Assembly: GCA_020002185.1 (NCBI GenBank)
Contig: JAHLWY010000249.1
Span: 1-64,000 of the forward strand
Direction of reading: 5' to 3'
DNA from: Paraescarpia echinospica
Lineage: Eukaryota; Annelida; Polychaeta; Sabellida; Siboglinidae
DNA: 64,000 bases
Position 1 is the stretch's first letter, and every line of letters begins with the position of its first letter. Position numbers and translations under genes: made by a program. The notes under the pieces were generated by a model. That model was not told where the DNA came from. It made no database searches and saw only the letters and a program-made list of their open reading frames with translations. Below are positions 17,620-50,671 of the stretch, piece by piece.

Positions 17620-19200
17620 ATTCACAGGAACAGACAGCAATGCAGAAATCCAGGCACCATCGACAACAACAGCGAAGCATGTGTTACCAACGCCGGTAAA
17701 ACCTAAGGTTTTGTCTCTACTGTTGCAGGGGTATGACAAGAAATTAACTGACATTTTAGTTTCAGGTTTTACCGAGGGTTTCCACATTCCTTCCAGTATC
17801 CCAACAGATCCACCCAAGCATGATTACGAGAATCACAGGTCTGTCAGGGAGAACCTTGATATAGTGCAGCAGAAACTGAAGAAAGAGAAAGAGAAACATA
17901 GAATTGCGGTAACCTTTGCATGTGACCCTTTCCCAAACATGGTATACTCTCCTTAAGGTTTAATACCTAAGAAAGCGCAGGGTGAATTTCGGCTTATACA
18001 TGACCTTAATTTCCCAAAGTCCAACTCCGTTAACTCACACATATCTCCCGAATTCACAGCGGTCACTTTCCAAATGTTAGATCATTGTATGGAACAGCTT
18101 CTGTTGTTGGGTAAAGGAGCCTATATCGCTAAGGCTGACCTGCAAGATGCATTTCGGATAATACCTGTTTCCCCCCTTGATTATAGGTTGCTTGGCTTCA
18201 AGTTTCTGGAACAAAGGTATTTTGACATGTGTCTTCCCATGGGGTGCAGTAATTCATGTCAAACGTTCGAGCTCCTGTCTGATGCATTGCAATGGATTTG
18301 TCAGAATAAATTTCATGTCAGCAATATGAGTCACATACTCGACGATTTTTTTTTTTTCGGAAAAACACTCCATGAATGTCATACTAGTCTTTCTCGGTTT
18401 TTTGAGCTTAGTGATATGGTTAACTTACCAATAAAGCAGGCCAAAACGGTGTTACCTTCCACGATAGTCACACTTCATGGTATTGAGGTTAACACTATGA
18501 ATCAAACCCTTGCTTTGCCTCTAGACAAGGTGCAATCACTACGCCAAAAGTTGCAAAGTCCAGGCCAGGAGAAAGAAAGCCACCCTTGGAGAGGTACAAT
18601 CTTTGTCCGGCTCTCTCTCTCTCTCTCTCGTTCGCCTGCAGGGCCATCGCACCTGGCCGATGTTTTCTAAGAAGAATAATCGACCTAACCAGGGGAAAGA
18701 CAAGAGCCAACCATCGCATCCGTCTAACTGTTGAGGCTCGTAAGGACATATCGGCTTGGCTGGAATTTCTGCACACTTTTAATGGCACTTTATCTTTTCT
18801 ACCAAACAGATGGACATCATCAGATTTTTTTCAGCTCACAACGGATGCAAGCGGCTTTGCATATGGAGCTGTAGTGGGGATCAGTGGTTACAGGGGCAGT
18901 TTCCCCCATCCTGGGACTCCATGCACATTGCTGTGAAAGAACTCCTGCCAATCTTACTGGCCGTCAGGAGCAGGGGGCCAAAGTGGTCTAACCAACGGGT
19001 CATGTTCCTTTCAGACAACACAGCCGTGGTGGAAGTGATTAACAGGCAAACTGCCAAGGACACATAGCTGATGTGTTTGCTCCGAAAATTGATTGTTGCA
19101 TGTCTGTCGTATAACATATGTTTTCGTGCTAAGCACATCCCAGGAAAGATCAATGTTGTTGCCGATCTTATCTCACCGTTACAGGTAGAACGTGCACGCA
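17620..19200 (+). pseudogene. RT and RNase H of the DIRS-like element (broken)
   Basis: The frame starting before 17620 reads LSLLLQGYDKKLTDILVSGF up to a TAA at 17954, inside what should be the conserved SP.GL(V/I)PKK motif. It then reads GEFRLIHDLNFPKSNSVNSH, KADLQDAFRIIPVSP (motif A), CLPMGCSNSCQTFE (motif B) and SHILDDFFFFGK (catalytic LDDF box). At about 18607-18628 a (CT)n run interrupts SLSFACRAIAPGR and shifts the frame. RNase H follows: LTTDASGFAYGAVVG, a frameshift near 18900, then HIAVKELLPILLAVR and MFLSDNTAVVEVINRQTAKD, a TAG near 19065, and RAKHIPGKINVVADLIS. The motif order and LDDF box identify the DIRS order. Confidence 0.88.
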
Positions 19201-19279
19201 GCGTTCAACCCAGCCTACACAACCACCCAAAACTAGTTCCCACTCACTGGCTTCCCTGGTACACAACGCAGTGAGCACC

Positions 19280-20133
19280 ATGGGCGCGGCCTTCGCACCA
19301 AGCAGTGCCAGACGTTACTAGAGTAACTGGAAAAGGTTTGTAACCTTTGTACAAACATTATATAGGAAAAGGAAGTACCTGCCTGCTTCCCCAAACACAG
19401 TAATCGCCTTTGTTCAGTATCTCAAAGATGAGGGCAAGGCACCCAGTACTATTAGGACTTTCATATCGGCTATCTCGGAACGCCACAAAGCCTGTCGCTA
19501 CCCCGACCCAACAAACGACTATTTAGTTGTACAAATTTTAAAAGGCGTAGCACATGCCAGCCTGTCAGCTCACGTGACCTGTCCCTCATCATTAAGTCAG
19601 TTCCATTGTCTAAGTGTTCATCTTACTCAGTAGTCTTGCTCCGCGCTATGTTCAGCCTCATGTTCTTCGGTTTTCTTAGGATAAGTGAGGTAACGGCTAG
19701 CCCGCATAATCTGTCTGTGACACAGTGTCGCATAAAACCTGCCAAATTACGCCTGGTCTTCCATACGTACAAACATAGTGCGGGCCGTCCTTTCAGCTTG
19801 GATGTCTTCCCCACGGGAAAGACAACTTGTCCGTACCGGAGGATGGTGGAATATATCAAGTTCAGGGGAAATTATCAAGGTCCCCTTTTTCGCAGTGCCA
19901 ATAAATTGCCGGTGCAGAAGACCGCTTTTGCCAAATACCTTAAGGAAGTGCTAAGTAACACGGAGTTAGCAGGCAAGAAAATTTCATCACACTCTTTCAG
20001 GATAGGGGCAGCGACATGGGCAGCAAAGGCTGGCTTCTCATCGGAACAAATCAAAGCTATGGGTCGCTGGCATTCAAACTCATATCAGAAATATATTAGA
20101 GTGGAATCAGTCTCTAGCAAACCGTCCACGTAA
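19280..20133 (+). pseudogene. tyrosine recombinase of the DIRS-like element (broken)
   Basis: The N-terminal core-binding part is readable in one frame (NWKRFVTFVQTLYRKRKYLP, SPNTVIAFVQYLKDEGKAPS, TIRTFISAISERHKACRYPD) with a TAG at about 19318. Near 19600 a frameshift leads to the intact catalytic part 19606-20133. It contains SLMFFGFLRISEV (first catalytic Arg), KKISSHSFRIGAATWAAKAG (His-x-x-Arg) and AMGRWHSNSYQKYIR (His and the nucleophilic Tyr). All five expected catalytic positions are present, but the domain is split, so this copy cannot make a full enzyme without the frameshift. Confidence 0.88.
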
Positions 20134-23084: not shown

Positions 23085-24228
23085 TTGTAAATCATTATAA
23101 TTATTATTGTGTATAAATCATTATAATTATTGTTGTGCATAAATCATTATAATTATTATGGTGTATAAATCATTATAATTATTGTTGTGTATAAATAATT
23201 ATAATTATTGTTGTGTATAAATCATTATAATTATTGTTGTGTATAAATCATTATCATTATTGTTGTGTGTAAATCATTATAATGATTGTTGTGTGTAAAT
23301 CATTACCATTATTGTTGTGTGTAAATCATTATAATGATTGTTGTGTATAAATCATTATAATTATTGTTGTGTATAAATCATTATAATTATTGTTGTGTAT
23401 AAATCAGTATAATTATTGTTGTGTATAAATCATTATAATTATTGTTGTGTATAAATCATTATAATTATTGTTGTGTATAAATCATTATAATTATTGTTGT
23501 GTGTAAATCATTATAATGATTGTTGTGTATAAATCATTATCATTATTGTTGTGTGTAAATCATTATAATGATTGTTGTGTATAAATCATTATAATTATTG
23601 TTGTGTGTAAATCATTATAATGATTGTTGTGTATAAATCATTATAATTATTGTTGTGTATAAATCATTATAATGATTGTTGTGTATAAATCATTATAACT
23701 ATTGTTGTGTATAAATCATTATTATTATTGTTGTGTATAAATCATTATAATTATTGTTGTGTATAAATCATTATCATTATTGTTGTGTATAAATCATTAT
23801 AATGATTGTTGTGTATAAATCATTATAATGATTGTTGTGTATAAATCATTATAATTATTGTTGTGTATAAATCATTATCATTATTGTTGTGTATAAATCA
23901 TTATCATTATTGTTGTGTATAAATCACTAAACTTATTGTTGAGTATAAATCAATATAATTATTGTTGTGTATAAATCATTATCATTATTATTGTGTATAA
24001 ATCATTATCATTATTATTGTTTATAAATCATTATCATTATTGTTGTGTATAAATCATTATAATTATTAGTGTGTATAAATAATTATAATTATTATTATGT
24101 ATAAATAATTATAATTATTGTTGTGTATAAATCATTATAATTATTGTTGTGTATAAATCATTATAATTTTTTTGTGTATAAATTATTATAATAATTGTTG
24201 TGTATAAATCATTATAATTTTTGTTGTG
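23085..24228. repeat. 26 bp minisatellite, about 44 copies
   Basis: The unit GTATAAATCATTATAATTAT plus TGTTGT is repeated over 1.14 kb. Variant units with CATTATCATTAT and CATTATAATGAT are interleaved in short higher-order patterns. The later copies (after about 23930) are more diverged, as expected at an array edge. There are no long ORFs. Confidence 0.95.
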
Positions 24229-24493
24229 TCTCGGTCTGAGATTAAATGTTTTAAATTTGAAAGTTGTGTTAGTTAACCCCTGAAGGGTAGTTACCGGCTG
24301 ACAGATGACGTCACGCCAGTAGGCGCGTGACGTGAGCGTGTGAGAGGGTGTGAGGAAGGTGAGAGACGTTGATTGTAATTGTTTACCTGTGGCCGGCGTC
24401 GGACGAGTCTACGGCGACAGACGACGTATGTTTTGAAAATACTCCTTGATTTTTCCGTCAGATTCTGTTCTAGGATGGATTTTTCTTAAGAGC

Positions 24494-28038: not shown

Positions 28039-28549
28039 CTGTGAACATGAAACAAACTGTCAATATGCACGTCGATGTGTCCACAAATCACCTTTCAACG
28101 TGTACCTATGATCATCGTTAATACCGTTATTAGGCCCTACTGGTTAATTGTCTCCGAACGTAGATAAGGATAAGGATAAGGATACTTTTATTTTTTCCCA
28201 ACAGCATTTAAGCAGATACAAATTATGTAAAATATATTCACACATACATATACTGGCATATGTAATAATATCGAAATGCAAAAATGCAAATACATCTGAA
28301 GATATGTAGTCTGCAAAATGTACATTTTGCAAAGAACGAAAGAAAGAAAAAAACAGTCTGCATTTAATGCCAATACATTATTACCAGCAGGAGTCAGGAC
28401 TTACCTTGAGAAAGACAATCAACTTTTGTATGACAATTATCACTGAATACGTAAGTACAAAAGGTGCCCAACACAATAAATAAATTATATAACATTTCAT
28501 CCATGTATATAATAGGCAGATGCGTAAGTTTAGAAACAATGCCGCGACC
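28039..28549 (-). other. intron or upstream sequence with a minus-strand retroposon tail at about 28165-28200
   Basis: AAGGATAAGGATAAGGATAC, followed by TTTTATTTTTTCCC, reads on the minus strand as GGGAAAAAATAAAAGTATCC followed by TTATCCTTATCC, a poly(A) signal plus hexamer tail typical of a non-LTR element. No RT remains. No further LRR exon was recognised. Confidence 0.4.
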
Positions 28550-28689
28550 ACGTCAGTAGTAAAGGAGGTTAAGTACCGGGCAGGTTGGCGCGGCCCGAAG
28601 CAAAAGCAAAAGTACCCGGATGTAGGTCAAGGTCAAAGGTCAAGGTCAACGATAAAGGTCAAGTACCCGGATGTATGTCAAGGTAACGT

Positions 28690-29580
28690 GGCGCCCCTAC
28701 CGGAATTTTTTCTGAACTAAAATAGCACCCCTGGCGGATAGTTGGTGAACTAAAATATGTCCCACCAAAAAACCACAACAGCGCCCCCTAACGGATAGTT
28801 CGTGAACTAAAATACATTTCCGCCAAAAAATTACCTCCAAAATTAGAACAGCTCCCCTGGCGGATAGTTGGTGAACTAAATATTTCCAGACAAAATGTTA
28901 ACAGCGCCCCCTAACGGATAGTTGGTGAACTAAACTATTTCCCGCAACAACCAACGTAGCGCCCTCTAACGGATAGTTGGTGAACTAAAATATTTCCCGA
29001 CAAAACTAGGACATCGCCACCTAGCGGATAGCTCAGGAACTAAAACATTTCCCCAAAACTATAACAGCGCCACCTAGCGGATAGCTCATGAATTAAAACA
29101 GCACCACATGGCGGAATTTTTTGGAACTAATATAGGTTGGCCCGCAGCGCCCCCTAGCGGAATTTTTCTTAAACAACTATTCAAGTGGTGTCACCTGACG
29201 GACAAATTGTAAACTAAATGTTCGAGTACTGCCCAATTTCGTGCTTCTTGGTCTGACCATTAGTGCCCCCTGGCGATTTTTTTTGAACTAAATTTCCCCT
29301 GGCGGATAGGTCGTGAACTACAAGTGGTGCCACCTGGAGGATAAGTTGTGAAGTAAATGTTCGAGTACTGCAAATATTCGTGTCTCTTGCACGCTTGCGT
29401 GCAATGGAGCCCCCTGACGGTTATATCACGAACTACAAACATCATCCCCTATTGGCCAAGTGAGCAAACCACATATGGGTACTGCAAATATTTGTGTCTG
29501 TTGTTTTTGTCGAGTGCTTACTCCTGGTGGATATATCATCATCAACTGAAAGCACCCCTGTTAGATAAGTTGTGAACTAA
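28690..29580. repeat. subterminal repeat array, left arm
   Basis: About a dozen diverged copies of GCGCCCCCTAGCGGATAGTT, plus GGTGAACTAAAATATTTC, lie 50-65 bp apart. They are most regular near the element end and decay inward. Such arrays next to TIRs serve as transposase-binding sites in several DNA transposon groups; that role is inferred here. Just outside them, at 28600-28690, are AAGTACCCGGATGTA..TCAAGGTCAA words. Confidence 0.75.
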
Positions 29581-29660
29581 ATAACAACTGCAGTCCGCGC
29601 TTGTGTACATTCTACTCAGCAGTCCGTGCTTTTGAATTTTCTACAATCCGTGATCTTTCA

Positions 29661-29746
29661 GCACGCCCACGTGACCTTTATGTTCTGTTCCATAATCTTT
29701 CGGCACGCCCACGTGATCTTTATGGTCTGTGGACTGGTTATAAAAG
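29661..29746 (+). promoter_or_regulatory. promoter of the small basic ORF: two E-box repeats and a TATA box
   Basis: GCACGCCCACGTGA occurs at 29661-29674 and again at 29703-29716, each preceded by TTTC.G and followed by .CTTTATG. TATAAAAG is at 29739-29746. The core CACGTG is an E-box. The same block recurs before the zinc-finger gene, so the two genes are probably co-regulated. A start site near 29770 would precede the ATG at 29790. Confidence 0.6.
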
Positions 29747-29789
29747 GCCTGCGTCTGCTTTTGTGGTCATTATAGCTTACATCTTGAAA

Positions 29790-29996
29790 ATGGGTGTGAA
29801 TTCATCTACTGACAACGTCCGAGATATTGCTACCGACAATGACCGAGATGTTGCGGGTAGGAACAAGCGACGACACCCGGTGGCCGACCTTTGTGTCTAT
29901 CAACATACCAAGCGACTGTCTCCGTCACTGAGCACATCCGACCACCGCAAGGAGACACGACGCCTCATGAGGTTGTCTGTCGAGAAACTTTCATAA
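29790..29996 (+). CDS. small basic protein, 68 aa, first gene of the palindrome
   Basis: The ATG 45 bp downstream of TATAAAAG opens a 68-codon frame. It starts MGVNSSTDNVRDIATDNDRD, continues with a basic stretch (AGRNKRRHPVADLCVYQHTK) and ends with RKETRRLMRLSVEKLS. NKRR and RKETRR could be nuclear signals. No domain is recognised. The longer frame open from 29601 would need a start upstream of the TATA box, which is unlikely. It could be a 5' exon: AAGAAACGG and AGAGCCAACCA follow, but no clear donor was found. The right arm has lost this gene. The evidence that it is real is the promoter placement, not homology. Confidence 0.45.
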   Translation: MGVNSSTDNVRDIATDNDRDVAGRNKRRHPVADLCVYQHTKRLSPSLSTSDHRKETRRLMRLSVEKLS

Positions 29997-30099
29997 GAAA
30001 AATTCGACGAAATTCCAAGAAACGGTTCTTTTCAGAGCCAACCACATTCTCACAAAAGAGTATTAGCTATTCTCATAGGTTATAAATTTCGTGCTCGTT

Positions 30100-30146
30100 C
30101 GGCACGTCCACGTGACTTTTCGGCACATTTACTAACTATATAAGCG
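30100..30146 (+). promoter_or_regulatory. promoter of the zinc-finger gene
   Basis: CGGCACGTCCACGTGACTTT at 30100 repeats the E-box block of the preceding gene, followed by a second TTCGGCAC and TATATAAG at 30137-30144. A start about 30 bp on (near 30168) makes the ATG at 30185 the first in the transcript, in preference to the in-frame ATG at 30149. The right arm lacks this promoter. Confidence 0.62.
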
Positions 30147-30184
30147 CGGTGTATTACCAATCTGAGCCAACGAGCAGAACCATC

Positions 30185-31420
30185 ATGCCGGTGACCAACC
30201 ACCCTGTCGGGCCATCGGATCCAGACGTAGTGGACGTCCCAACTCTAGAATCAACGGTAAGCGTCGACACAACTATCAAGGTCAAAGGTCTCCTTATCGA
30301 CAAAGTACCGCAGCATACTCCCTTCAACATCAGGTGTAGATACTGCAAGAAGGGTATGATTGTCGACGACAGGGGACATTTGCAATGCGAACGACACGGT
30401 TATATGGCCTCTGACATGTATATCATGGTTCAAACGGTTGCGACTGATGAGGAGGTCCTGCCACCAGCAAGCTCATTACCACCATCGCTGAGACCCTTCA
30501 TCTGCCTGGACTGTGGGGGATCGTTCACACGGAAATGTAATTCCAAGCAACACGTCACCAGCGGATGTTGTGCACGTCGGAAGAGGACGGCCGATGAAGC
30601 CAAGTTGTATACGTCAGTGGTGAGTCATACTTTGTATTGTTTTACTATGTACTTTCACCATCGTCGCCCCTGCGTATGTTTACCTCTGCTAAAATGGCAT
30701 CCCTGTATATGTTTACTTCCGTTAAAATAGCGTCCCTCTAATTTGTTTACATCCGTCAAAATGGCGTCATTATCACCGTACTCTAGCAACGGTGTACTAT
30801 TCCCATTCATTCTTTAATATTTATTAAATATTATTGAAATATTCTTGCAGAATTACATTGAAGGCCCGCTACCACCAAAGCGTCAACGAATGGTCTCTGT
30901 GTCGACAGAGACGATTAACGACAACAGAACATCATCGATACCAACTTCCGTTCCTGACGACGTCACAACTACCCATGCTGTCAATGTCACAACTTCTACT
31001 CAGCCTGCCAACGTCACAACTTCTGCTCCTGACTTTACTGGTCCGAACATTACCATTGATTTCCCTGTAATTGAAATGAAGAAGACGCTGGCACGACACA
31101 TAGCATGTAACATCTTTGAACTCTCAAGACGACAATGTCGTGGTTGCAAGATAGACCATCCTAGTCAATGTCATCACGATTGTATGTTATCTGATGACAT
31201 TCAAATTTGCATGCACTTTGACGAGGCTGTGGAGACCATTAATTCAACCGCAGTGGTGAAAGACTGTTTGAGTGTTTTGTTAGACGCGGGTGTGAAGCTA
31301 TCCGATGTGACAGTCGAACAGTTGTGTAATATCAATACTTGGTTGCAAGAATCTGTTTCGAAACAGTGGCGAAACACTATGAAACATATGGTTCTGGCAG
31401 TAATGGAGGGTGACCTGTAA
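30185..31420 (+). CDS. spliced zinc-finger protein, left arm (exons 30185-30619 and 30851-31420)
   Basis: Exon 1 ends at a GTGAGT donor and exon 2 starts after TATTCTTGCAG; the join is in phase 0 and gives 334 residues. Residues about 51-71 hold CRYCKKGMIVDDRGHLQCER-H, a CxxC...CxxH zinc-ribbon-like unit. Residues 107-128 hold CLDCGGSFTRKCNSKQHVTS-GC, a C2HC finger. RRKR at 131-134 and PPKRQR early in exon 2 are likely nuclear signals. A Thr/Ser/Val-rich linker follows, then a second Cys/His module, CRGCKIDHPSQCHHDC, and a helical C-terminus (CNINTWLQESVSKQWRNTMK). I recall the C.GC..DHPSQ..HDC motif from uncharacterised, often repetitive invertebrate ORFs but cannot name the family. A DNA- or RNA-binding role is inferred. 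This copy is intact. Confidence 0.75.
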
Positions 31421-31609
31421 AGAACTTTCTTTTGTCTTGTACACGATTAAACTTTGCAAGACTCTGTATCAATGTCTCAGGTTCTTTTAGTTATGGAGCG
31501 TGACATGTAAATACGTTTGTGTTGTTCACGAATAAACTGTGCAAACCTCATCTTGTGTCTTTTTCATAGTGTAATGCAAAGCGATTGTTGGGAACCTTAC
31601 TAATAGTCT

Positions 31610-32025
31610 TACACTTCACAAGTATGTCTGTGTAGTTCAGTAGAGTTGATAGCCACTTATGTATGTGTAGTTCAGTAGAGATGATAGCCACTTATGTATG
31701 TGTAGTTCAGTACAGATATGTTAACCACTTATGTCTGTGTAGTTCAGTACAGATATGTTAACCACTTATGTCTGTGTAGTTCAGTACATATATGTTAACC
31801 ACTTATGTCTGTGTAGTTCAGTAGAGATGATAGCCACTTATGTATGTGTAGTTCAGTACAGATATGTTAACCACTTATGTCTGTGTAGTTCAGTACATAT
31901 ATGTTAACCACTTATGTCTGTGTAGTTCAGTAGAGATGTTAACCACTCATGTCTGTGTAGTTCAGTACAGAGATGTTAACCACTCATGTCTGTGTAGTTC
32001 AGTACAGAGATGTTAATGTACTCAG
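31610..32025. repeat. 37 bp minisatellite, left arm
   Basis: The unit contains ACTTATGTCTGTGTAGTTCA and GTACAGATATGTTAACC, about ten copies. The right arm has the same repeat, with fewer copies, at 37640-37850. Confidence 0.85.
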
Positions 32026-32104
32026 ACCAACTAGTTGGACAAATGAAACACTATGCTTTGATTAACACGCTGCACAAATTTGTCAATTCGACGTGTTATT
32101 GCGT

Positions 32105-32275
32105 CAAACCCTCAAAAGTGAGGAGGATGTGGAGGAGGGCTAGAGATGGACGCGTTGAGGAGGAGGAGGAGGAGGAGGGCTAGAGATGGACGCGTTGTGG
32201 AGGAGGAGGAGGAAGAGGAGGAGGAGGAGGGCTAGAGATGGACGCGTTGAGGAGGAGGAGGAGGGTTACCGTGTG
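32105..32275. repeat. GAG-rich repeat with GGCTAGAGATGGACGCGTTG spacer
   Basis: Runs of GGA/GAG triplets are separated by GGCTAGAGATGGACGCGTTG. The counterpart is at 37385-37540 in the right arm. Confidence 0.8.
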
Positions 32276-32336
32276 AGATTCCACCGCTTCCACCTCAATT
32301 CCACTACAATAGACGGGTTATCGCGTGAGATTTGCT

Positions 32337-32685
32337 AATCACTCACTCATTCATTCACTCACTCACTCACTCACTCACTCACTCACCCTTCTTATCTGTT
32401 CACTCATTCACTCACTCACTCACTCACTCACTCACCCTTCGTGTCTGTTCACTCACTCACTCACCCTTCGTGTCTGTTCAATCACTCATTCACTCACTCA
32501 CCCTTCGTGTCTGTTCAATCACTCACTCACTCACTCACTCACTCACTCACTCACTCACTCACTCACTCACTCACTCACTCACTCACTCACTCACTCACTC
32601 ACTCACTCACTCACCCTTCGTGTCTGTTCACTCACTCACTCACTCACTAACTCACTCACTCACTCACTCACTCACGCCGTCCCTT
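32337..32685. repeat. (TCAC)n microsatellite with CCTTCGTGTCTGTTCA interruptions
   Basis: Tetranucleotide runs are broken several times by CCTTCGTGTCTGTTCA. Long ORFs here (SLTHSLTHSLTH) are by-products in three frames. The right-arm counterpart is at 37020-37325. Confidence 0.9.
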
Positions 32686-32879
32686 CGTCCTTTTCTAACA
32701 TTTTATCTTTTCAACATGTTACCGTGGTAACATTTTCGTATTTTAGTGCGTACAATTCATCTCGCCACTCATTTCATTGCTTGCATTTGAACCATAAACA
32801 CCTGCATCACGAGCTCGTCGACTGTTCTACTGGCTGCCAACAAGCCCACACCAACACCGTTCCAGTGCCCAAATTGCAA

Positions 32880-33785
32880 ACGAGACAAGAGACGAGACTA
32901 TGACCGAGATAAGCCACGAGACTACGGATGACACATCACACGAGACTATGGATGACACATCACACGTGACTACGGATGTCACATCACACGAGACTACGGA
33001 TGTCACATCACACGAGACTACGGATGACACATCACACGAGAGTACCGACGAGACAAGAGACGAGACTATGACCGATATATACCACGAGACTACGGATGTC
33101 ACATCACACGTGACTACGGATGTCACATCACACGAGACTACGGATGACACATCACACGAGAGTACCGACGAGACAAGAGACGAGACTATGACCGAGATAT
33201 GTCACGAGACTACGGATGACACATCACACGAGAGTACCGACGAGACAATGTCCGAGATATGTCACGAGACTACGGATGACACATCACACGAGACTACGGA
33301 TGACACATCACACAAGAGTACCGACGAGACAAGAGACGAGACTATGACCGAGATATACTACGAGACTACGGATGACACACCACACGAGAGTACCGACGAG
33401 ACAAGAGACGAGACTATGACCGAGATATACCACGAGACTACGGATGTCACATCACACGAGACTACGGATGACACATCACACGAGAGTATCGACGAGACAA
33501 TGTCCGATATATATCACGAGACTACGGATGACACCTCACACGAGACTACGAATGTAACATCACGCGACATACCGACGAGACAAGAGACGAGACTATGGCC
33601 GAGATATGTTACGAGACTACGGATGACACATCACACGAGACTACGGATGTCACATCACACGAGAGTACGGACGAGACAAGAGATATGCTACGAGACTACG
33701 GATGACACATCACACGAGACTACGGATGTCACATCACACGAGAGTACGGACGAGACAAGAGATACGCCACGAGACTATGGATGAC
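32880..33785 (+). repeat. 24 bp-based tandem repeat open as a Thr/Asp/Ser/His-rich frame, left arm
   Basis: The unit ACGAGACTACGGATGACACA plus TCAC is mixed with ACGAGAGTACCGACGAGACA variants. It is open for 294 codons from 32900 (SHETTDDTSHESTDETRDET). The right arm has the same frame on the minus strand, 36602-37000. The frame is kept because the unit is a multiple of three, and no start signal supports translation. I call it a repeat, not a gene. Confidence 0.75.
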
Positions 33786-33789
33786 GATA

Positions 33790-35002
33790 TATCACTAGAC
33801 AGGACTTACATATATACACTAGTAATCGGCGTCATCTCATTTACATAATCAATCAGACCGAATGTACATAACGTGACTTCCCTTAACACAAAAACTGTGC
33901 GCGTTCATGAGATAGGCGATATCCGATACCACTCAACGGATACCAATGTAATTAGTCAGAGTATTGTTATCTACCGACCATGATAGATCTCTATTCGTTG
34001 ACACACTTCCGGGAATTCCCGAAGCATAGAGGCCGCCATGACAGTCAAGTAACATCCGGTGCGACGTCACTTCCAACGTACCGTCCCTAGTAGAGGCTGT
34101 CATAGCAAACGAATTTGAAAACTGCTATGACCGAAAACGACTATGTCAATAACATGTAAGGACAACCACCTGACAGGACTTCATTCAAAGAGGTGACCAT
34201 CACGGTTCCCAACGCCACTCAACGGACACCAATGTAATTAGTCAGAGTATTGCCATCTACCGAACATGATAGTTCTCTATTCGTTGACACACATATTCGT
34301 TGGGAATAGCGGAAGCGTAGAGGCCGCCATGTCAGGTCGCCATGACATTCAAATAACTTCCGGTACTACGTTACTTCCGGCGTAGCGTCCCTAGTAGAGG
34401 CCGCCATGACAGTCAAATGACTTCCGGTACCACGTCACTTCCGGCGTAGCGACCCCTAGTGGATAATCGGAGTACTACGTCACACACTGCCATAGAAAGC
34501 GAATTTGAAAATGGATGTGATCGAAAACGAGTATGTCAATAACATGTAAGGAAAACCACCTGACAGGACTTCATTCAAAGAGGTCCCAAACATCACATAC
34601 CTTTATGTCAAGAGACGATCATCTGTTCGGATTCACGTCCAACGAGACGACCATAGGACTCGCATGAGGTATCGCTTCTATTAATGGAAAACATATGTAT
34701 ATGAAGCAGCCGTCTTTTCAACGTAACAATTCCATATTTTCAAATAGTGCGAGCGACCAGATACGATACGACCATCTCGAGAGTCGAAAAAGGAAAGACC
34801 AGATTCGTCGGAAGCACGGTATGTTCACTAGTTTTCGGCGTGATCTCATTTGCAAAATCAATCAGACCGAACGTACATCACGTGACTTCCCTTAACACAA
34901 AAACTGTGCACTTTCATGAGACAGGCGACATCTGATGGCCCCAACGGATAGCAATGTAACAAATCAGAATAACGCCAACTACCGACCACGATAGATCTCT
35001 AT
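33790..35002. repeat. inner unique part of the left arm
   Basis: It matches 35386-36600 inverted. It contains sub-repeats with GAGGCCGCCATGACAGTCAA and CTTCCGGTACCACGTCACTT. A 66-codon ORF at 34695-34895 (MYMKQPSFQRNNSIFSNSAS) is kept in both arms with a few residue changes, but has no domain. Confidence 0.7.
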
Positions 35003-35121
35003 TCGTTCTCTCTCTCACACAACACATTCTCTCTCACACAACACATACACACACTCTCTCTCTCACACACAACACATACACACACTCTCTCTCTCTCTCT
35101 CTCTCACACAACACATACACA

Positions 35122-35156
<35 letters not shown>

Positions 35157-35169
35157 ACACACACACACA

Positions 35170-35209
<40 letters not shown>

Positions 35210-35385
35210 ACACATTTGCTTGGTGGTGAGTGAGTGAGTGAGTGAACAAATGGGGTGGTGGTGAGTGAGTGAGTGGTGAGTGAGTGAGAGTGGTGAGTGA
35301 GAGTGAGTGAACGAACACGAAGGGTGGGGAAATGGTATTATTATTGTGTCAATGTTAGTAATGTGTGTGTGAGAGAGAGAACGAA
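35003..35385. repeat. central loop of the palindrome: CT/CA and GTGA simple repeats
   Basis: (CT)n, (CA)n and ACACAACACA runs go from 35003 to about 35220, then GGTGAGTGAGTGA runs to about 35320 and a short unique piece. The inverted arms begin at CGAATAGAGATCTATCGTGG (35391) and its complement (ends about 34999). Confidence 0.8.
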
Positions 35386-38050
35386 TAGAGATCTATCGTG
35401 GTCGGTAGTTGGCGTTATTCTGATTTGTTACATTGCTATCCGTTGGGGCCATCAGATGTCGCCTGTCTCATGAACGTGCACAGTTTTTGTGTTAAGGGAA
35501 GTCACGTGATGTACGTTCGGTCTGATTGATTATGCAAATGAGATCACGCCGAAAACTAGTGTATATACCGTGCTTCCGACGAATCTGGTCTTTCCTTTTT
35601 CGACTCTCGAGATGGTCGTATCGTATCTGGTCGCTCGCACTATTTGAAAATATGGAATTGTTACGTTGAAAAGACGGCTGCTTCATATACATATGTTTTC
35701 CATTAAAAGAAGCGATACCTCATGCGAGTCCTATGGTCGCCTCGTTGGACATTAATCCGAACAGATGATCGCTCTTGACATGAAGGTATGTGATGTTTGG
35801 GACCTCTTTGAATGAAGTCCTGTCAGGTGGTTGTCCTTACATGTTATTGACATAGTCGTTTTCGATCACAGCCGTTTTCAAATTCGCTTGCTATGGCAGT
35901 GTGTGACGTAGTACTCCGATTATCCACTAGGGGTCGCTACGCCGGAAGTGACGTGGTACCGGAAGTCACTTGACTGTCATGGCGGCCTCTACTAGGGACG
36001 CTACGCCGGAAGTAACGTAGTACCGGAAGTTATTTGAATGTCATGGCGACCTGACATGGCGGCCTCTACGCTTCCGCTATTCCCAACGAATATGTGTGTC
36101 AACGAATAGAGAACTATCATGTTCGGTAGATGGTAATACTCTGACTAATTACATTGGTGTCCGTTGAGTGGCGTAGGGAACCGTGATGGTCACCTCTTTG
36201 AATGAAGTCCTGTCAGGTGGTTGTCCTTACATGTTATTGACATAGTCGTTTTCGGTCATAGCAGTTTTCAAATTCGTTTGCTATGACAGCCTCTACTAGG
36301 GACGGTACGTCGGAAATGATGTCGCACCGGATGTTTCTTGACTGTCATGGCGGCCTCTATGCTTCGGGAATTCCCGAAAGTGTGTCAACGAATAGAGATC
36401 TATCATGATCGGTAGATAACAATACTCTGACTAATTACATTGGTATCCGTTGAGTGGTATCGGATATCGCCTGTCTCATGAACGCGCACAGTTTGTGTGT
36501 TAAGGGAAGTCACGTGATGTACGTTCGGTCCGATTGATTATGTAAATGAGATGACGCCAATTACTAGTGTATATATGTAAGTCCTGTCTAGTGATATATC
36601 GTCATCCATAGTCTCGTGGCATACCTCTTGTCTCGTCCGTACTCTCGTGTGATGTGACATCCGTAGTCTCGTGTGATGTGTCTCGTAGTATATCTCTTGT
36701 CTCGTCCGTACTCTCGTGTGATGTGTCATCCGTAGTCTCGTGTGATGTGACATCCGTAGTCTCGTGACATATCTCGGCCATAGTCTCGCCTCTTGTCTCG
36801 TCGGTACTCTCGTGTGATGTTACATTCGTAGTCTCGTGTGAGGTGTCATCCGTAGTCTCGTGATATATCTCGGACATTGTCTCGTCGATACTCTCGTGTG
36901 ATGTGTCATCCGTAGTCTCGTGAGATGTGACATCCGTAGTCTCGTGGTATATATCGGTCATAGTCTCGTCTCTTGTCTCGTCGGTTCTCTCGTGTGATGT
37001 TTGCGCAGCGTGTTGGTCAAAGCATAGTGTAATGAGTGCGTGAGTGACAGCGTGAACAGACACAAAGGATGAGTGAGTGAGTGAGTGAGTGAACAGAAAC
37101 GAAGGGTGCGTGAGTGAGTGAGTGAGTGAGTGAGTGAGTGAACAGACACGAAGGGTGAGTGAGTGAGTGAGTGATTGAACAGACACAAAGGGTGAGTGAG
37201 TGAGTGAACAGACACGAAGGGTGAGTGAGTGAGTGAGTGAGTGAGTGAGTGAACAGACACGAAGGGTGAGTGAGTGAGTGAGTGAGTGAGTGAGTGAGTG
37301 AGTGAGTGAATGAGTGAGTGATTAGCAAATCTCACGCGTTAACCCGTCTATTGTAGTGGAATTGTGGTGGAAGCGGTGGAATCTCACACGGTAACCCTCC
37401 TCCTCCTCCTCAACGCGTCCATCTCTAGCCCTCCTCCTCCTCCTCCTCCTCCTCCTCAACGCGTCCATCTCTAGCCCTCCTCCTCCTCCTCCTCCTCAAC
37501 GCGTCCATCTCTAGCCCTCCTCCTCCTCCTCCTCACTTTTGAGGGTTTGACGCAATAACACGTCGAATTGACAAATTTGTGCAGCGTGTTGATCAAAGCA
37601 TAATGTTTCATTTGTCCAACTAGTTGGTCTGAGTACATTAACATCTCTGTACTGAACTACACAGACATGAGTGGTTAACATCTCTACTGAACTACACAGA
37701 CATAAGTGGTTAACATATCTGTACTGAACTACACAGACATGAGTGGTTAACATATCTGTACTGAACTACACAGACATAAGTGGCTATCATCTCTACTGAA
37801 CTACACATACATAAGTGGCTATCATCTCTACTAAACTACACAGACATACTTGTGAAGTGTAAGACTATTAGTAAGGTTCCCAACATACGCTTTGCATTAC
37901 ACTATGAAAAAGACACAAGATGAGGTTTGCACAGTTTATTCGTGAACAACACAAACGTATTTACATGTCACGCTCCATAACTAAAAGAACCTGAGACATT
38001 GATACGGAGTCTTGCAAAGTTTAATCGTGTACAAGACAAAAGAAAGTTCT
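35386..38050. repeat. right arm, inner parts
   Basis: In mirror order to the left arm: the unique part to 36600; the CGTAGTCTCGTGTGATGTG array 36600-37000; (GTGA)n with CGAAGGGTGAG interruptions 37020-37325; CTCCTCCTC runs 37385-37540; a minisatellite 37640-37850; then gene-flanking sequence. Array lengths differ from the left arm, so the arms evolved separately after pairing. Confidence 0.8.
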
Positions 38051-38064
38051 TTACAGGTCACCCT

Positions 38065-39168
38065 CTATATTACTGCCAGAACCACATGTTTCATAGTGTT
38101 TCGCCACTGTTTCGAAACAGATTCTTGCAACCAAGTATTGATATTACACAACTGTTCGACTGTCACATCGGATAGCTTCACACCCGCGTCTAACAAAACA
38201 CTCAAACAGTCTTTCACCACTGCGGTTGAATTAATGGTCTCCACAGCCTCGTCAAAGTGCATGCAAATTTGAATGTCATCAGATAACATACAATCGTGAT
38301 GACATTGACTAGGATGGTCTATCTTGCAACCACGACATTGTCGTCTTGAGAGTTCAAAGATGTTACATGCTATGTGTCGTGCCAGCGTCTTCTTCATTTC
38401 AATTACAGGGAAATCAATGGTAAAGTTCGGACCAGTAAAGTCAGGAGCAGAAGTTGTGACGTTGGCAGGCTGAGTAGAAGTTGTGACATTGACAGCATGG
38501 GTAGTTGTGACGTCGTCAGGAACGGAAGTTGGTATCGATGATGTTCTGTTGTCGTTAATCGTCTCTGTCGACACAGAGACCATTCGTTGACGCTTTGGTG
38601 GTAGCGGGCCTTCAATGTAATCCTGCAAGAATATTTCAATAATATTTAAAAAATATTAAAGAATGAATGGGAATAGTACACCGTTGCTAGAGTACGGTGA
38701 TAATGACGCCATTTTGACGGAAGTAAACAATATAGAGGGACGCCATTTTAACGGAAGTAAACATATACAGGGATGCCATTTTAGCAGAGGTAAACATACG
38801 CAGGGGCGACGATGGTGAAAGTACATAGTAAAACAATACAAAGTATGACTCACCACTGACGTATACAACTTGGCTTCATCGGCCGTCCTCTTCCGACGTG
38901 CACAACATCCGCTGGTGACGTGTTGCTTGGAATTACATTTCCGTGTGAACGATCCCCCACAGTCCAGGCAGGTGAAGGGTCTCAGCGATGGTGGTAATGA
39001 TCTTGCTGGTGGCAGGACCTCCTCATCAGTCGCAACCGTTTGAACCATGATATACATGTCAGAGGCCACATAACCGTGTCTTTCGCATTGCAAATGTCCC
39101 CTGTCGTCGACAATCATACCCTTCTTGCAGTATCTACACCTGGTGTTGAAGGGAGTATGCTGCGGTAC
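38065..39168 (-). pseudogene. zinc-finger gene, right arm copy (5' truncated)
   Basis: Exon 2 (38622-38065) and exon 1 (39168-38854) mirror the left-arm gene with the same GTGAGT...CTTGCAG intron. Differences include N to D at the exon 2 start, a Met/Val and a Ser/Arg change in exon 1, and an altered 3' end where AATATAGAGG puts a stop a few codons early. The promoter, the start and about 38 N-terminal codons are missing. The element sequence resumes at GACAAAGTACCGCAGCATAC fused to subterminal repeats at 39169. The ATG available at 39117 (MIVDDRGHLQCER) would lack the first CxxC. Most fingers and the CRGCKIDHPSQCHHDC module are kept. Confidence 0.75.
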
Positions 39169-39169
39169 T

Positions 39170-39445
39170 TTGTCAGGGGCGATGTTCTAGTTTTGGCGGG
39201 AAATATTTAGTTCACCAACTATCCGCCAGGGGGAGCTGTTCTAGTTTGGGATGTATTTTGGCGGGAATATATTTTAGTTCACCAACTATCCGTTAGGGGG
39301 CGCTGCTGTGGTTTTGGGAGGTACATATTTTAGTTCACCAACTATCCGCCAGGGGCGTTGTTTTAGTTCCCGCGCAAAAAAAAATTGCGCTATTTTAGTT
39401 CCGAAAAAAATCGGTAGGGGCGCTACGTGACCTTTACCTACATCC
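39170..39445. repeat. subterminal repeat array, right arm
   Basis: About four copies of the inverted unit (TAGTTCACCAACTATCCG, then CCAGGGG or TTAGGGG) lie before the terminal 100 bp. The inner part, present in the left arm, is deleted. Confidence 0.75.
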
Positions 39446-39551
39446 GGGTACTTGACCTTGACCTTTGACCTTTACCTACATCCGGGTACTTTTGCTTTTG
39501 CTTCGCGCCGCGCCAACCTGCCCGGTACTTAACCTCCTTTACTACTCACGT

Positions 39552-41785
39552 ATACATAGCGAGATATCCAACTTGGAATAAACGATACCAGAAAGACCCG
39601 GCCTCGACTCTGAAGGGAGACATTCCCGCGTCAACTCGAGTCATCGAGTGTAAGGATGCGACCGATACTTTTTGTCATTTAATTAATTTCGTGTCTTCAC
39701 ATAAAACGTTTGACATGTTTAATAGCTAATCGAACAGGAGGCGTGTAAAATATAAGATTACGTTTAAGTTTTGACGGGAATTTAAAGACAACATTACTAA
39801 AAATTAAAATGTAGGGTTTATACTTAGGCTGGTTACGCGCGTTGTTGGGCACATATTTATATTGGAGTCAGCCAACACTCTTTCTTTGAAACAATAATTC
39901 GATTATTCCCTGAAGCATGACAGTGGGTAATCTGTAATACTGTTTTTTCTGTGTACTTGGGCATATCATAGAATATAAAGTTGATTTTTTTTTATAATTG
40001 CTGAACTATTTTTAACATTTTTTAACAGTTTGTTTTGGTATTTTTAGACGTTTGTTCTCATAAAACCCACACATGTGTTGTAACCACAAATACCTACATT
40101 CTTAGGTGCGTCAATTGCTGATCTAAAGCGGGAAAGTCACATTTGTTATTTGTAACATGACAGTAGTCCAACAGAACAGGCAAAACGATTCCAGCGGGAT
40201 CTAAAAACATTCTCTTAAACTAGATTAATCAAATCAAATGTTGTATAATTGAGGTTAAACAGTTCAATTCACATCACCTAACGCATTTTGTATGTGCTCG
40301 CTTATTTACTTACATAGTCATACCTTATCGACGAAATTATACAATATTGCCAGAACGGCACTGCTACACGAAGTAACTTGATAATTAAGCAGACGACACC
40401 GACAACATTATTGTGTTGTCACCTGGAAACGTTTGTGAATTAATTTAGTCTCCGTTTCATTCGCTATATGTTGTTGGGAAAGATAAATTATAATAAATCC
40501 AAGTGCGTTTCAGGCCCTTTGTGTGATTGTTTTGTTTTTTCGGGTGCGGATAAAGGCGAATTTTTTCGCAATTCGACGGTGAGTAGCATGGTAACTTTTT
40601 TGCGGTTCGACAGTGTAGTGCTGGATATGTACCACGATTCGAGAGGACAGTCTGTTTCTTGGAGATTTTTCGCGGTAACGCTAATATTTTTTACGGAGTT
40701 TCAGATTTTTCACGAAATGACCCAGACCGTTAGTGTGGTTGATTATTTTTTTATTGGGACATTTTGTCGATTTGAGGAAGTGTTGAAGATTAATCTCGGT
40801 TTGAGAGGGGGAGTGTTGGAATTTTTCCAAAGGTTAATGTGGATAATGTACTAGATTTGGCATAGTTTTACGGTGCAGTTTTCGCGATAGAGTAAGTCGG
40901 GACATAACGCACAGTTATCGGGATATCGGATGCAGAGAACAGGTTCCTGTAGGAGTATATCGTCTGCGTGTTATGGATAAACTAGTTCGGTTTCTTAGGA
41001 ACGTTCCTTGTGGTGACATTTTTACCGACTTTTGTTTTTGAAAATATATTTAGTCATTTTAGAGGAAATGATATTGTGGGGTATGCAGCCCAACTACGTG
41101 GCTGAAAGCCCTGAGGTGGACGTTTAATAAATACCTTTATATTGTTATTATATTTTGCATGCGACCGATACATTTATACCACTACTACAATACTATTTCC
41201 ATGTTCGACAGATTCGCATCATTTGTCTTAGTTTCTCATGGCTACTGCATACAGTCCCCCGTTGATGAGAACATTTAAATGTGCAATTTTGCTAGTAAAA
41301 TGGTAATGTGTGTTTTGTATCTATTGCACCCTTGTTGTAACTAGAGAGACACAATGATCTACAGCTTCACCTGGCTACCTCGAAATTCCTATTTTCAGAA
41401 CTTATAGGTAGATAGGGTGGGAGGGCGTTTCGCCCCAGAGGTTTTTTTATCACCCCGTACTCCAGCGTTAACATTTTCTCCGGAGTCTCAATTTAGTTAT
41501 GTCGCGATTTCTAATCAAGCAGAGTTAGTTCTATCGAAGCGGAACCTGTTTGCCTCAGCGTGGGAGGGCGCGCTCTTTAACCCATGCTGTCACAGAGACA
41601 CAAACTGTTATCGTTTAATCGGGGATAATACGATGTTATTTTATGGCCGATGAAACAGAGGGGCATCTTATCTTCGTCATCATCATCCTCATTGACATCG
41701 TCATGATTATTGTTCACGTCACGTTCAAAACACCGTCGATTAACCGTTGTCGTAGTATTTGAAGTCGTCATCCCCATACATTGGC
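39552..41785. other. no supported gene except a weak 128-codon ORF at 40468-40854
   Basis: AT-rich. The ORF at 40468 (MLLGKINYNKSKCVSGPLCD) is Phe-rich with no domain. A minus-strand ORF at 41577-41777 includes NNNHDDVNEDDDDEDKMPLC and ends near the next candidate exon; it may be its continuation or chance. Confidence 0.3.
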
Positions 41786-46910: not shown

Positions 46911-49900
46911 CGCTTTAGTTTTCTTTTTATTCAACAGGGGATGAAAAAACTACAGTTGATCAGTAGATTCAATATTCCAGATGCATCGTTGTCACTGGGA
47001 CTAACAATAGACCGATTCTGGCCTGTGTTCATGAAAGCTTTGGCTACTTGCCATGGTTCGACAGGCCACTGACTAATGTCATCGTTGTCACTGGGACTGA
47101 CACTAGACCGGTTCTAGCATCTGTTCATGAAAGCTTTGGCTACTTGCCATGGTTCGACAGGCCACTGACTAATGTCATCGTTGTCACTGGGACTGGCACT
47201 AGACCGGTTCTAGCATCTGTTCATGAAAGCTTTGGCTACTTGCCATGGTTCGACAGGCCACTGACTAATGTCATCGTTGTCACTGGGACTGACACTAGAC
47301 CGGTTCTAGCATCTGTTCATGAAAGTTTTGGCTACTTGCCATGGTTCGACAGGCCACTGACTAATGTCATCGTTGTCACTGGGACTAACAATAGACCGAT
47401 TCTGGCCTGTGTTCATGAAAGCTTTGGCTACTTGCCATGGTTCGACAGGCCACTGACTAATGTCATCGTTGTCACTGGGACTGACACTAGACCGATTCTA
47501 GCATCTGTTCATGAAAGCTTTGGCTACTTGCCATGGTTCGACAGGCCACTGACTAATGTCATCGTTGTCACTGGGACTGGCACTAGACCGGTTCTGGCCT
47601 CTGTTCATGAAAGCTTTGGCTACTTGCCATGGTTCGACAGGCCACTGACTAATGTCATCGTTGTCACTGGGACTGGCACTAGACCGGTTCTAGCATCTGT
47701 TCATGAAAGCTTTGGTTACTTGCCATGGTTCGACAGGCCACTGACTAATGTCATCGTTGTCACTGGGACTGACACTAGACCGGTTCTAGCATCTGTTCAT
47801 GAAAGCTTTGGCTACTTGCCATGGTTCGACAGGCCACTGACTAATGTCATCGTTGTCACTGGGACTGACACTAGACCGGTTCTAGCATCTGTTCATGAAA
47901 GCTTTGGCTACTTGCCATGGTTCGACAGGCCACAGACTAATGTCATCGTTGTCACTGGGACTGGCACTAGACCGGTTCTAGCATCTGTTCATGAAAGCTT
48001 TGGCTACTTGCCATTGTTCGACAGGCCACTGACTAATGTCATCGTTGTCACTGGGACTGACACTAGACCGGTTCTAGCATCTGTTCATGAAAGCTTTGGC
48101 TACTTGCCATGGTTCGACAGGCCACAGACTAATGTCATCGTTGTCACTGGGACTGGCACTAGACCGGTTCTAGCATCTGTTCATGAAAGCTTTGGCTACT
48201 TGCCATGGTTCGACAGGCCACTGACTAATGTCATCGTTGTCACTGGGACTGGCACTAGACCGGTTCTAGCATCTGTTCATGAAAGCTTTGGCTACTTGCC
48301 ATGGTTCGACAGGCCACTGACTAATGTCATCGTTGTCACTGGGACTGACACTAGACCGGTTCTAGCATCTGTTCATGAAAGCTTTGGCTACTTGCCATGG
48401 TTCGACAGGCCACTGACTAATGTCATCGTTGTCACTGGGACTGACACTAGACCGGTTCTAGCATCTGTTCATGAAAGTTTTGGCTACTTGCCATGGTTCG
48501 ACAGGCCACAGACTAATGTCATCGTTGTCACTGGGACTGACACTAGACCGGTTCTAGCATCTGTTCATGAAAGCTTTGGCTACTTGCCATGGTTCGACAG
48601 GCCACTGACTAATGTCATCGTTGTCACTGGGACTGACACTAGACCGGTTCTAGCATCTGTTCATGAAAGCTTTGGCTACTTGCCATGGTTCGACAGGCCA
48701 CTGACTAATGTCATCGTTGTCACTGGGACTGGCACTAGACCGGTTCTAGCATCTGTTCATGAAAGCTTTGGCTACTTGCCATGGTTCGACAGGCCACTGA
48801 CTAATGTCATCGTTGTCACTGGGACTGACACTAGACCGGTTCTAGCATCTGTTCATGAAAGCTTTGGCTACTTGCCATGGTTCGACAGGCCACTGACTAA
48901 TGTCATCGTTGTCACTGGGACTGGCACTAGACCGGTTCTAGCATCTGTTCATGAAAGCTTTGGCTACTTGCCATGGTTCGACAGGCCACTGACTAATGTC
49001 ATCGTTGTCACTGGGACTGACACTAGACCGGTTCTAGCATCTGTTCATGAAAGCTTTGGCTACTTGCCATGGTTCGACAGGCCACTGACTAATGTCATCG
49101 TTGTCACTGGGACTGACACTAGACCGGTTCTAGCATCTGTTCATGAAAGTTTTGGCTACTTGCCATGGTTCGACAGGCCACTGACTAATGTCATCGTTGT
49201 CACTGGGACTGACACTAGACCGGTTCTAGCATCTGTTCATGAAAGCTTTGGCTACTTGCCATGGTTCGACAGGCCACTGACTAATGTCATCGTTGTCACT
49301 GGGACTGACACTAGACCGGTTCTAGCATCTGTTCATGAAAGTTTTGGCTACTTGCCATGGTTCGACAGGCCACAGACTAATGTCATCTTTGTCAATGGGA
49401 CTGGCACTAGACCGGTTCTAGCATCTGTTCATGAAAGCTTTGGCTACTTGCCATTGTTCGACAGGCCACTGACTAATGTCATCGTTGTCACTGGGACTGA
49501 CACTAGACCGGTTCTAGCATCTGTTCATGAAAGCTTTGGCTACTTGCCATTGTTCGACAGGCCACAGACTAATGTCATCGTTGTCACTGGGACTGACACT
49601 AGACCGGTTCTAGCATCTGTTCATGAAAGCTTTGGCTACTTGCCATGGTTCGACAGGCCACTGACTAATGTCATCGTTGTCACTGGGACTGACACTAGAC
49701 CGGTTCTGGCCTGTGTTCATGAAAGCTTTGGCTACTTGCCATTGTTCGACAGGCCACTGACTAATGTCATCGTTGTCACTGGGACTGACACTAGACCGGT
49801 TCTAGCATCTGTTCATGAAAGCTTTGGCTACTTGCCATTGTTCGACAGGCCACAGACTAATGTCATCGTTGTCACTGGGACTGGCACTAGACCGGTTCTA

Positions 49901-50671
49901 GCATCTGTTCATGAAAGCTTTGGCTACTTGCCATGGTTCGACAGGCCACTGACTAATGTCATCGTTGTCACTGGGACTGACACTAGACCGGTTCTAGCAT
50001 CTGTTCATGAAAGCTTTGGCTACTTGCCATTGTTCGACAGGCCACTGACTAATGTCATCGTTGTCACTGGGACTGACACTAGACCGGTTCTAGCATCTGT
50101 TCATGAAAGCTTTGGCTACTTGCCATGGTTCGACAGGCCACTGACTAATGTCATCGTTGTCACTGGGACTAACAATAGACCGGTTCTGGCCTCTGTTCAT
50201 GAAAGCTTTGGCTACTTACCATTGTTCGACAGGCCACTGACTAATGTCATCGTTGTCACTGGGACTGACACTAGACTGGTTCTGGCCTCTGTCCATGAAA
50301 GATTTGGCTACTTGCCATGATTCGACAGGCCACTGAGTAATGTCACTGTTGTCAAGCGTTAGTCGGGTTCTGCGTGTGGCTTTCTCTGCGGCAATGCCGG
50401 CCAGCTATTGCGAGCAGACGTTGTCGGGGCAGTTCATCGAATAGGCGTTAGTGTTTCTGTCGTAAGTGATGTTTCCAAAGGAACAGGGAACACTGCACCG
50501 GGTCCCTCCACAGGTGAATTTTAGCAGGTGGTGCAAGTCGTTCATCTGGTCATGGCAGAATGACCGCAAAGCTTATATGCTGACGTGAAGAGCACGCGTG
50601 GCCTTGATCCAGTTGAGATACTCTGCGTCGTTCAACTGGCCAGTGCCACCCGCAGTACCTCCTGTTGCCAT
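46911..50671 (-). pseudogene. HEPN/DZIP3-like N-terminal exon disrupted by a 96 bp tandem expansion
   Basis: The minus strand opens at ATG 50671: MATGGTAGGTGQLNDAEYLN, WIKATRALHVSI, a TAA, LRSFCHDQMNDLHHLLKFTC, CSVPCSFGNITYDRNTNAYS, NCPDNVCSQ, a TAG, then TLDNSDITQWPVESWQVAKS. From there a 32-codon unit (DISQWPVEPWQVAKAFMNR..) repeats about 35 times. The unique sequence resumes at 46998 as DNDASGILNLLINCSFF, then after a T-run frame slip HPLLNKKKTKA, up to a GTAAGT donor at 46910. Both unique halves join through one unit, so the unit is part of the original domain. From memory this matches a domain common in mollusc and amphioxus proteins of HEPN/DZIP3 type, often tied to immunity. The stops and array make this copy non-functional as written. 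Confidence 0.78.
46985..50335. repeat. 96 bp coding-derived tandem array, about 35 copies
   Basis: The period is exactly 96 bp and the copies are nearly identical. Variable sites are GACACT/GGCACT/AACAAT, CTGACT/CAGACT, CCATGG/CCATTG and CTAGCATCT/CTGGCCTCT. On the minus strand the CTAGCA form creates an in-frame TAG in most units. Six units, including both edge units, keep the TAG-free CTGGCC form, which is probably ancestral. The plus-strand frame stays open for 1,090 codons only because the unit is 32 codons with no plus-frame stop. Confidence 0.95.

Follow-up and report, generated by a model that had tools for sequence, protein, structure and literature searches.

A palindromic element with Maverick/Polinton-type ends in Paraescarpia echinospica, a candidate snap-back derivative of a linear replicon

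A stretch of 64,000 nucleotides from the annelid Paraescarpia echinospica (GenBank assembly GCA_020002185.1, contig JAHLWY010000249.1, positions 1 to 64,000; hereafter the window, which lies within the contig labelled C246 here) carries a near-perfect palindrome of 11 kb, and the question raised by this locus is what kind of element the palindrome is and how such an element could be copied. Searches of the genome (1.08 Gb, 3111 contigs) demonstrated that the palindrome, at 28555-39546 (10,992 bp), is a single integrated copy of a large repeat family. The reading favored here, to which a probability of roughly 55% is given, is that the element derives from a Maverick/Polinton-type linear replicon as a palindromic snap-back form that is non-autonomous and is copied via its own hairpin by a polymerase supplied in trans. 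The anatomy described below was observed in the assembly, and the replication route is what we infer from it.

The window palindrome is bounded by exact inverted 26-mers, one starting at 28555 and the other ending at 39546; the preliminary description of this DNA, which had reported terminal inverted repeats and a palindrome at 28554..39547, was thus correct to within one base at either end. The left terminal inverted repeat (28555..28910, + strand) starts AGTAGTAAAGG and is 80% identical to the right repeat (39176..39546, - strand), which finishes CCTTTACTACT, and the element as a whole reads 5'-AGTAGT...ACTACT-3'. It is flanked by a 6-bp target duplication, CACGTC on the left (28549..28554) and CACGTA on the right (39547..39552), with a mismatch at one of the six positions; a duplication had been proposed before, but as one of 4-5 bp (ACGT/CACGT). 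The centre lies near 35.2 kb, and the arms are 98.0% identical between 30299-31832 and 37639-39174 and 96.6% identical between 33377-35028 and 35360-37000. The right arm lacks a counterpart of left-arm positions 28911-30298 (1,388 bp; break point of this 1.39 kb deletion at 39174..39175), as had been seen in the preliminary description, where the loss was put at 1.3 kb.

The same insertion, with both host flanks matching, was found in a second contig, C11 (57.065-57.070 Mb). The two copies differ by 16 substitutions in 2425 columns (74 gapped) of the left flank and by 17 in 2506 columns (34 gapped) of the right flank, about 0.7% in each case, and in C11 the target duplication is perfect (CACGTC/CACGTC). 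C11 has no counterpart of window positions 30805-38584, a 7.78 kb segment spanning the centre; its right arm, however, retains most of the segment that is deleted from the right arm of the window. Most simply, C11 is the other allele of the window insertion, and because their deletions differ, the two haplotypes would each have lost different parts of a larger palindrome. It should be noted that the outer left arms (window 28555-29990) differ by 52 substitutions in 1513 columns, several-fold the divergence of the flanks, and this fits a single insertion less well; conversion from other copies is our guess, and two separate insertions at one site are a possible alternative. The window and its probable allele offer a natural view of the instability of long palindromes. 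The gaps and contig ends found at or near palindrome centres in this assembly might point to an artefact of assembly or of hairpin reads, but next to no weight is given to this explanation, since at many loci the two sides have different host flanks together with a 6-bp duplication, the arms differ by substitutions and deletions, and the same insertion occurs in two contigs with different centres. The earlier judgment that the palindrome is not a simple hairpin-read artefact is therefore upheld.

A genome search with the element ends, which had been proposed in advance, recovered the 26-nt end 110 times, compared to 0 times for the reversed control. For 25 of the '+' ends among the 100 ends listed, a '-' partner lies at a distance of 1-25 kb, with spans of 3.1-16.0 kb (two of the 25 share one partner). 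First-look searches returned 1684 candidate places for the end region, 2013 for exon 2 of the gene described below, 1852 for a 2 kb piece of a type-B DNA polymerase (PolB) gene, 1412 for the inner block of the arms and 797 for a T-shaped centre; only the best 40 of each were scored, so that these counts are orders of magnitude and the identities are those of the best copies. Among the 40 places scored for each of exon 2, PolB and the T, the top matches have 98-100% identity, indicating that at least those copies are recent.

The sample comprised the window and 16 other element loci, plus one extra centre (L042), and was biased by the way in which loci were picked: C5, C14, C1a, C1b and C4-71 for paired ends; C12-58, C3082, C13-15, C10-38 and C4-4.9 for paired exons; C11 as the best match after the window; and C7-70, C7-60, C4-11, C1-49 and C3-43 as the top exon-2 matches with no visible partner. 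L002-L008 were left out, and L020-L021 were scanned for open reading frames (ORFs) only. Among the five partner-less picks, C3-43 proved to be a full palindrome; C1-49 is inverted but asymmetric, and other arrangements are seen in C7-60, C4-11 and C7-70. Eleven loci are palindromic and gave no sign of a polymerase; they represent 10 insertions, as the window and C11 count once; two loci, C14 and C1a, are non-palindromic and carry a polymerase. The 20-mer end was present within 5 mismatches on both sides of 13 of the 17 loci, ten of which show a perfect 6-bp duplication (C11, C14, C1a, C1b, C4-71, C12-58, C3082, C10-38, C7-60 and C4-11), two a duplication with one mismatch (the window and C3-43) and one, C7-70, no match; no end pair was detectable in C5, C1-49, C13-15 or C4-4.9. 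When the flanks of C1b, another palindrome of the family, were joined, 28 of the 36 matches listed ran across the junction. These are copies of the interrupted repeat, and thus related empty sites, so that the related copies asked for in the preliminary description exist, and related empty sites exist for this palindrome. For the joined flanks of C3082, at least 9 matches, among those listed from 336, span the junction, but at only 71-75% identity and with differing lengths.

C14 and C1a share the ends of the window element and contain an ORF for a type-B DNA polymerase. Their terminal repeats measure 541 bp (100% identical) and 484 bp (93%), respectively, and the two elements are 96-99% alike over the polymerase and most of the left part. 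In C1a, small C2H2-type ORFs come first, then a long ORF on the + strand; a C2H2 ORF and an RPA-like gene follow, both on the - strand. C14 keeps only pieces of the two - strand genes. The PolB ORF has 1596 homologues at E<=0.001, and PF03175 is present in all but nine of the 120 listed; hmmscan with PF03175 gave E 1.1e-6 for P0001 and 1.3e-10 for P0012, with P0006 just below the cut-off. Furthermore, the ORF holds DFE, GNSGYG and DTDS in that order, which we take to be polymerase-B motifs. Searches of PHROGs and PDB sequences with the PolB ORF returned nothing useful, and a search for a relative in viral contigs gave four pattern matches, none of which was confirmed. The family of the polymerase and the ends of the elements suggest that the PolB-bearing relatives may be protein-primed.

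Several of these features are those of Mavericks/Polintons. The AGTAGT/ACTACT ends of the window element agree with the (AGT)2//(ACT)2 or (AG)3//(CT)3 termini by which Mavericks/Polintons are defined, and the likeness extends to the 6-bp duplications, terminal repeats of some hundred bases and a type-B polymerase in the relatives; PMC8097293 reports (AGT)2//(ACT)2 ends and a 6-bp target duplication for vertebrate Mavericks. However, the present family differs in being palindromic, in its T-shaped centre and in its RPA-like gene, and also in what was looked for and not detected, namely a polymerase in the palindromes, an integrase in the elements read and a match to a packaging ATPase in the genome (Pox_A32 profile, 45 candidates scored). 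The polymerase probe, a 2 kb piece of the C14 gene, detected nothing in the 11 palindromic loci, an absence that is firm only in the six gap-free loci because the other five are gapped. The arms of palindrome C5 are 0.4-0.7% from the PolB element C1a, which indicates that palindromes and polymerase elements share their outer parts. The palindromes probably live off related polymerase-carrying elements.

Each arm of the window palindrome carries a gene. The left-arm gene model, predicted from the sequence, has two open exons, 30185-30619 and 30851-31420 (+ strand, stop included), and encodes 334 amino acids; exon 1 contains half of an RPA-C-like zinc ribbon domain and, after it, a C2H2-like exon, and exon 2 encodes a C..C..DHPSQ..H..C domain. 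The right-arm copy (exon 1 at 38854..39174 and exon 2 at 38065..38622, - strand) has lost its 5' part and terminates four residues early. Pfam searches with the window exons returned weak zinc-ribbon matches only, and the spliced protein has only 4 homologues. The RPA-like gene of C1a, by comparison, matches PF08646 (E 1.7e-7) and, weakly, RPA1 in the PDB (E 0.019), and the RPA-C domain was detected both in C1a and in palindrome C5 (E 1.7e-7). The window gene retains about half of this domain before it enters the C2H2-like exon, and the DNA at this point shares ~69% identity with sequence that lies upstream of PolB in C14. The mirrored gene thus looks like a chimera in which a C2H2-like exon has been joined to an RPA-like gene, presumably by template switching; the spliced zinc-finger gene proposed earlier for each arm is supported as a gene model, truncated on the right, but is better described as this chimera. 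Exon-1 or exon-2 sequence is present in both arms at 10 of the 11 palindromic loci. A short ORF at 29790..29996 (+ strand) is a shortened relative of a C11 ORF with a SERTA motif (PF06031, E 4.4e-8). One copy each of the SERTA, exon-1 and exon-2 sequences was also observed in L024 (C7:60414153-60417278), a 3.1 kb non-palindromic member with perfect ends and a TATATA duplication.

The centres of C3082, C3-43, C1b and C13-15 consist of an uninterrupted 122-nt structure in the shape of a T, built of a long outer stem and three hairpins, two of them at the sides and the third small. It is intact, and always 122 nt long, in 11 loci (small fetches and contig starts included), and damaged versions occur in C10-38, C12-58, L042 and L048; the genome contains 60 occurrences of a 44-nt core of the T, compared to 0 of the reversed control. 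Folded as single-stranded DNA, the T of C3082 gave -81.1 kcal/mol (z -19.9, 0/200 shuffles as good); however, any long inverted repeat scores well, and it is the conserved side arms that carry the weight. Covariation in the hairpins amounts to one paired change, in the small middle hairpin of C1b, among 5 distinct sequences, too small a set to carry weight. In a palindrome, the orientation of the hairpins (flip or flop) depends only on the strand that is read. Contigs C2060 and C2410 start 15 and 55 bases ahead of the T, as is expected when an assembly breaks at a palindrome centre; as assemblies often do so, elements of this kind would be under-reported. In the window, the inner blocks (left, 33811..35021, + strand, 'centreU', common to other palindromes and not found in the two PolB elements; right, 35366..36586, - strand) end at 35021/35366, and 344 nt of simple-sequence filler (35022..35365) replace the lost T, which explains why the T was invisible in the preliminary description.

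Parvovirus inverted terminal repeats (ITRs), such as those of adeno-associated virus (AAV), are T-shaped, with a long stem and small side hairpins. The likeness of the T in the window's relatives is one of layout; the sequence presumably differs, the T lies at the centre of a palindrome rather than at genome ends, and no parvovirus Rep/NS1 was named in the ORFs scanned, for which no dedicated search was made. It could be proposed, from the T-shaped hairpin and the RPA-like gene, that a virus-like agent with single-stranded DNA and a T-shaped telomere acquired Maverick ends and left the family behind as its trace in the chromosomes. This appears very improbable, as the T stands in the middle and Pfam scans, which covered selected ORFs, named neither a capsid nor a parvovirus Rep family (no search was aimed at capsid or protease models). 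A further alternative is that the T is an independent hairpin MITE (miniature inverted-repeat transposable element) and that the palindromes formed in the chromosome by inverted duplication or arm-to-arm conversion. The T, of ~135 bp with inverted ends, is MITE-like, is absent from the two PolB elements, and conversion in place would preserve the target duplications; however, arm sequence flanks the T on both sides in all six copies fetched with flanks (L043-L048), and the same centre at different loci argues that the palindrome spread as such, which makes this alternative decidedly unlikely. Beyond the T, the arm runs to the end of the fetch in two of these six copies and to a gap in two, and meets another element's end in one and a deletion in one. 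In L047 (C6:33239580-33240060), a family terminal-repeat end with its first base missing lies within a TATATAT stretch ~25 bp from the T, which probably records the insertion of one member of the family into another. The idea that each locus underwent its own random snap-back was not retained, since one and the same centre recurs in palindromes at different loci.

The arms of an element were next compared with each other and with the remaining sample across 649-726 bp (455 bp in C5) that take in part of exon 2. In 5 of the 9 testable insertions (C12-58, C3082, C13-15, C5 and C4-71) the two arms are strictly mutual nearest relatives; the strongest case is C4-71, with arms 0.55% apart compared to ~7% from any other sampled element. 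These results also bear on a cut-and-paste foldback transposon, moving only as double-stranded DNA by a transposase or integrase acting on its ends, with the T incidental. The Foldback transposons FB and Galileo have very long inverted repeats, subterminal arrays and a 9-bp duplication; likewise, the inverted repeats of the window make up most of the element and tandem arrays occupy 31623..32016 and 32880..33800 (the latter with ETTDDTSHE in one frame and a mirror copy at 36586-37001), the unit has moved with target duplications, and no polymerase was detected inside it. Such a transposon is nevertheless considered unlikely, given the Maverick ends and 6-bp rather than 9-bp duplication, the polymerase-bearing relatives with the same ends, the conserved T centre and the arms that are each other's nearest relatives in 5/9. 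No Foldback-related transposase was named by Pfam in the ORFs scanned, and ORF and Pfam scans recognized no transposase or integrase ORF inside the window element, in agreement with the preliminary description; its term 'giant foldback transposon' holds for a transposed palindromic unit with a duplication and related copies, but not for a likeness to the Foldback family.

An integrase was also sought outside the elements. P0182, a homologue of the C2H2 ORF, continues into an rve domain (E 4.4e-6) that falls short of the curated cut-off, and its rve part matches none of the fetched loci. In the genome this piece has 2844 candidate places, of which 150 were scored: none lies within 15 kb of the 40 exon-2, 40 inner-block or 71 T places, and a single one is located 4.1 kb outside a terminal repeat. 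For the shared N-terminal domain, 150 matches were scored, and 19 of them have an rve match 0.7-1.05 kb downstream. A large family of integrase-like ORFs, many of them stop-free over ~450 amino acids, was observed genome-wide, and some have ahead of them a domain that the C2H2 ORF of C1a, a PolB element, also contains. An integrase helper acting in trans is plausible.

When part of a linear replicon is duplicated in inverted order, the displaced strand folds fully on itself, and the snap-back reading builds on this property. A polymerase from the relatives would start at the terminal repeat by a terminal-protein mechanism and displace a single strand of the palindromic element, and this strand would snap back as a single long hairpin, with the T at its closed end, rebuilding a double-stranded terminal origin. 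Copying round the hairpin would yield a new palindrome with equalized arms, a retroviral-type integrase made elsewhere would insert the product with a 6-bp duplication, and the centre, being unstable in the chromosome, would be cut out. Adenovirus inverted-duplication genomes and yeast pGKL1-derived hairpin plasmids are palindromic derivatives of protein-primed linear replicons; unlike the present family they are not chromosomal, and we know of no conserved T centre in them. According to PMC8235507, AAV populations hold snap-back molecules, in which half of the genome is duplicated in inverted order and which are replicated with factors in trans; those, however, are packaged parvovirus genomes with ITRs at their ends, whereas the present elements have Maverick-type ends, a central T and chromosomal insertions. 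The titles and abstract openings of the literature searched held no description of palindromic Maverick derivatives or of a T-shaped centre.

Several observations weigh against the snap-back reading. The PolB ORF itself has no Pfam match, which its homologues alone possess; no terminal protein was identified; integrase was found by ORF scans in no element read; and 0 of the 40 PolB places have any of the 150 scored integrase matches within 15 kb. The T and the inner block were not found in C14 or C1a, and the reading does not account for their origin. Palindrome C1b has no detectable RPA exons, and five palindromes (C5, C4-71, C12-58, C13-15 and C4-4.9) contain, at or near the centre or in one arm, a gap of unknown true size (1000 N) that could hide genes. 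In the arm test C10-38 gives a tie, and the window, C3-43 and, by a single base, C4-4.9 fail. Finally, no extrachromosomal form, transcript or replication intermediate was seen, the basis being assembly sequence.

A more far-reaching proposal, which is put forward tentatively and at somewhat less than even odds, is that the family represents a new type of replicon, in which Maverick-type, presumably protein-primed ends are combined with a conserved T-shaped, parvovirus-like internal turning point, the displaced strand is a complete self-folded hairpin genome, and an RPA-like gene for single-strand binding is present in both arms of most copies, which borrow polymerase and integrase. The arms would then be re-equalized in each cycle, so that their divergence would date the insertion, and arm-to-arm divergence may act as an insertion clock. 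If true, protein-primed ends and hairpin turning would be joined in one chromosomal parasite, and snap-back defective genomes could turn into a transposon family with many recent copies.

Outside the palindrome, the window contains other repeats. Thirty-five tandem copies of a 96-bp unit, 97% alike, occupy 46984-50354, with a single frame open throughout (1117 amino acids, 46967-50320), the Pfam matches of which to Smr and EBNA2_N look like chance on a repeat. A retroelement remnant at 16510-20133 has an ORF for a reverse transcriptase (17957-18670, PF00078, E 4.3e-13) and, after it, one for a tyrosine recombinase (19456-20133, PF00589, E 1.1e-7), an order that we take to be DIRS-like. An AT-rich 26-bp unit is repeated in 44 tandem copies at 23088-24229, within the stretch of lowest GC in the window, and two nested inverted repeat pairs at 54046-56054 (314 and 215 columns, 85% and 80%) are probably another small inverted-repeat element.

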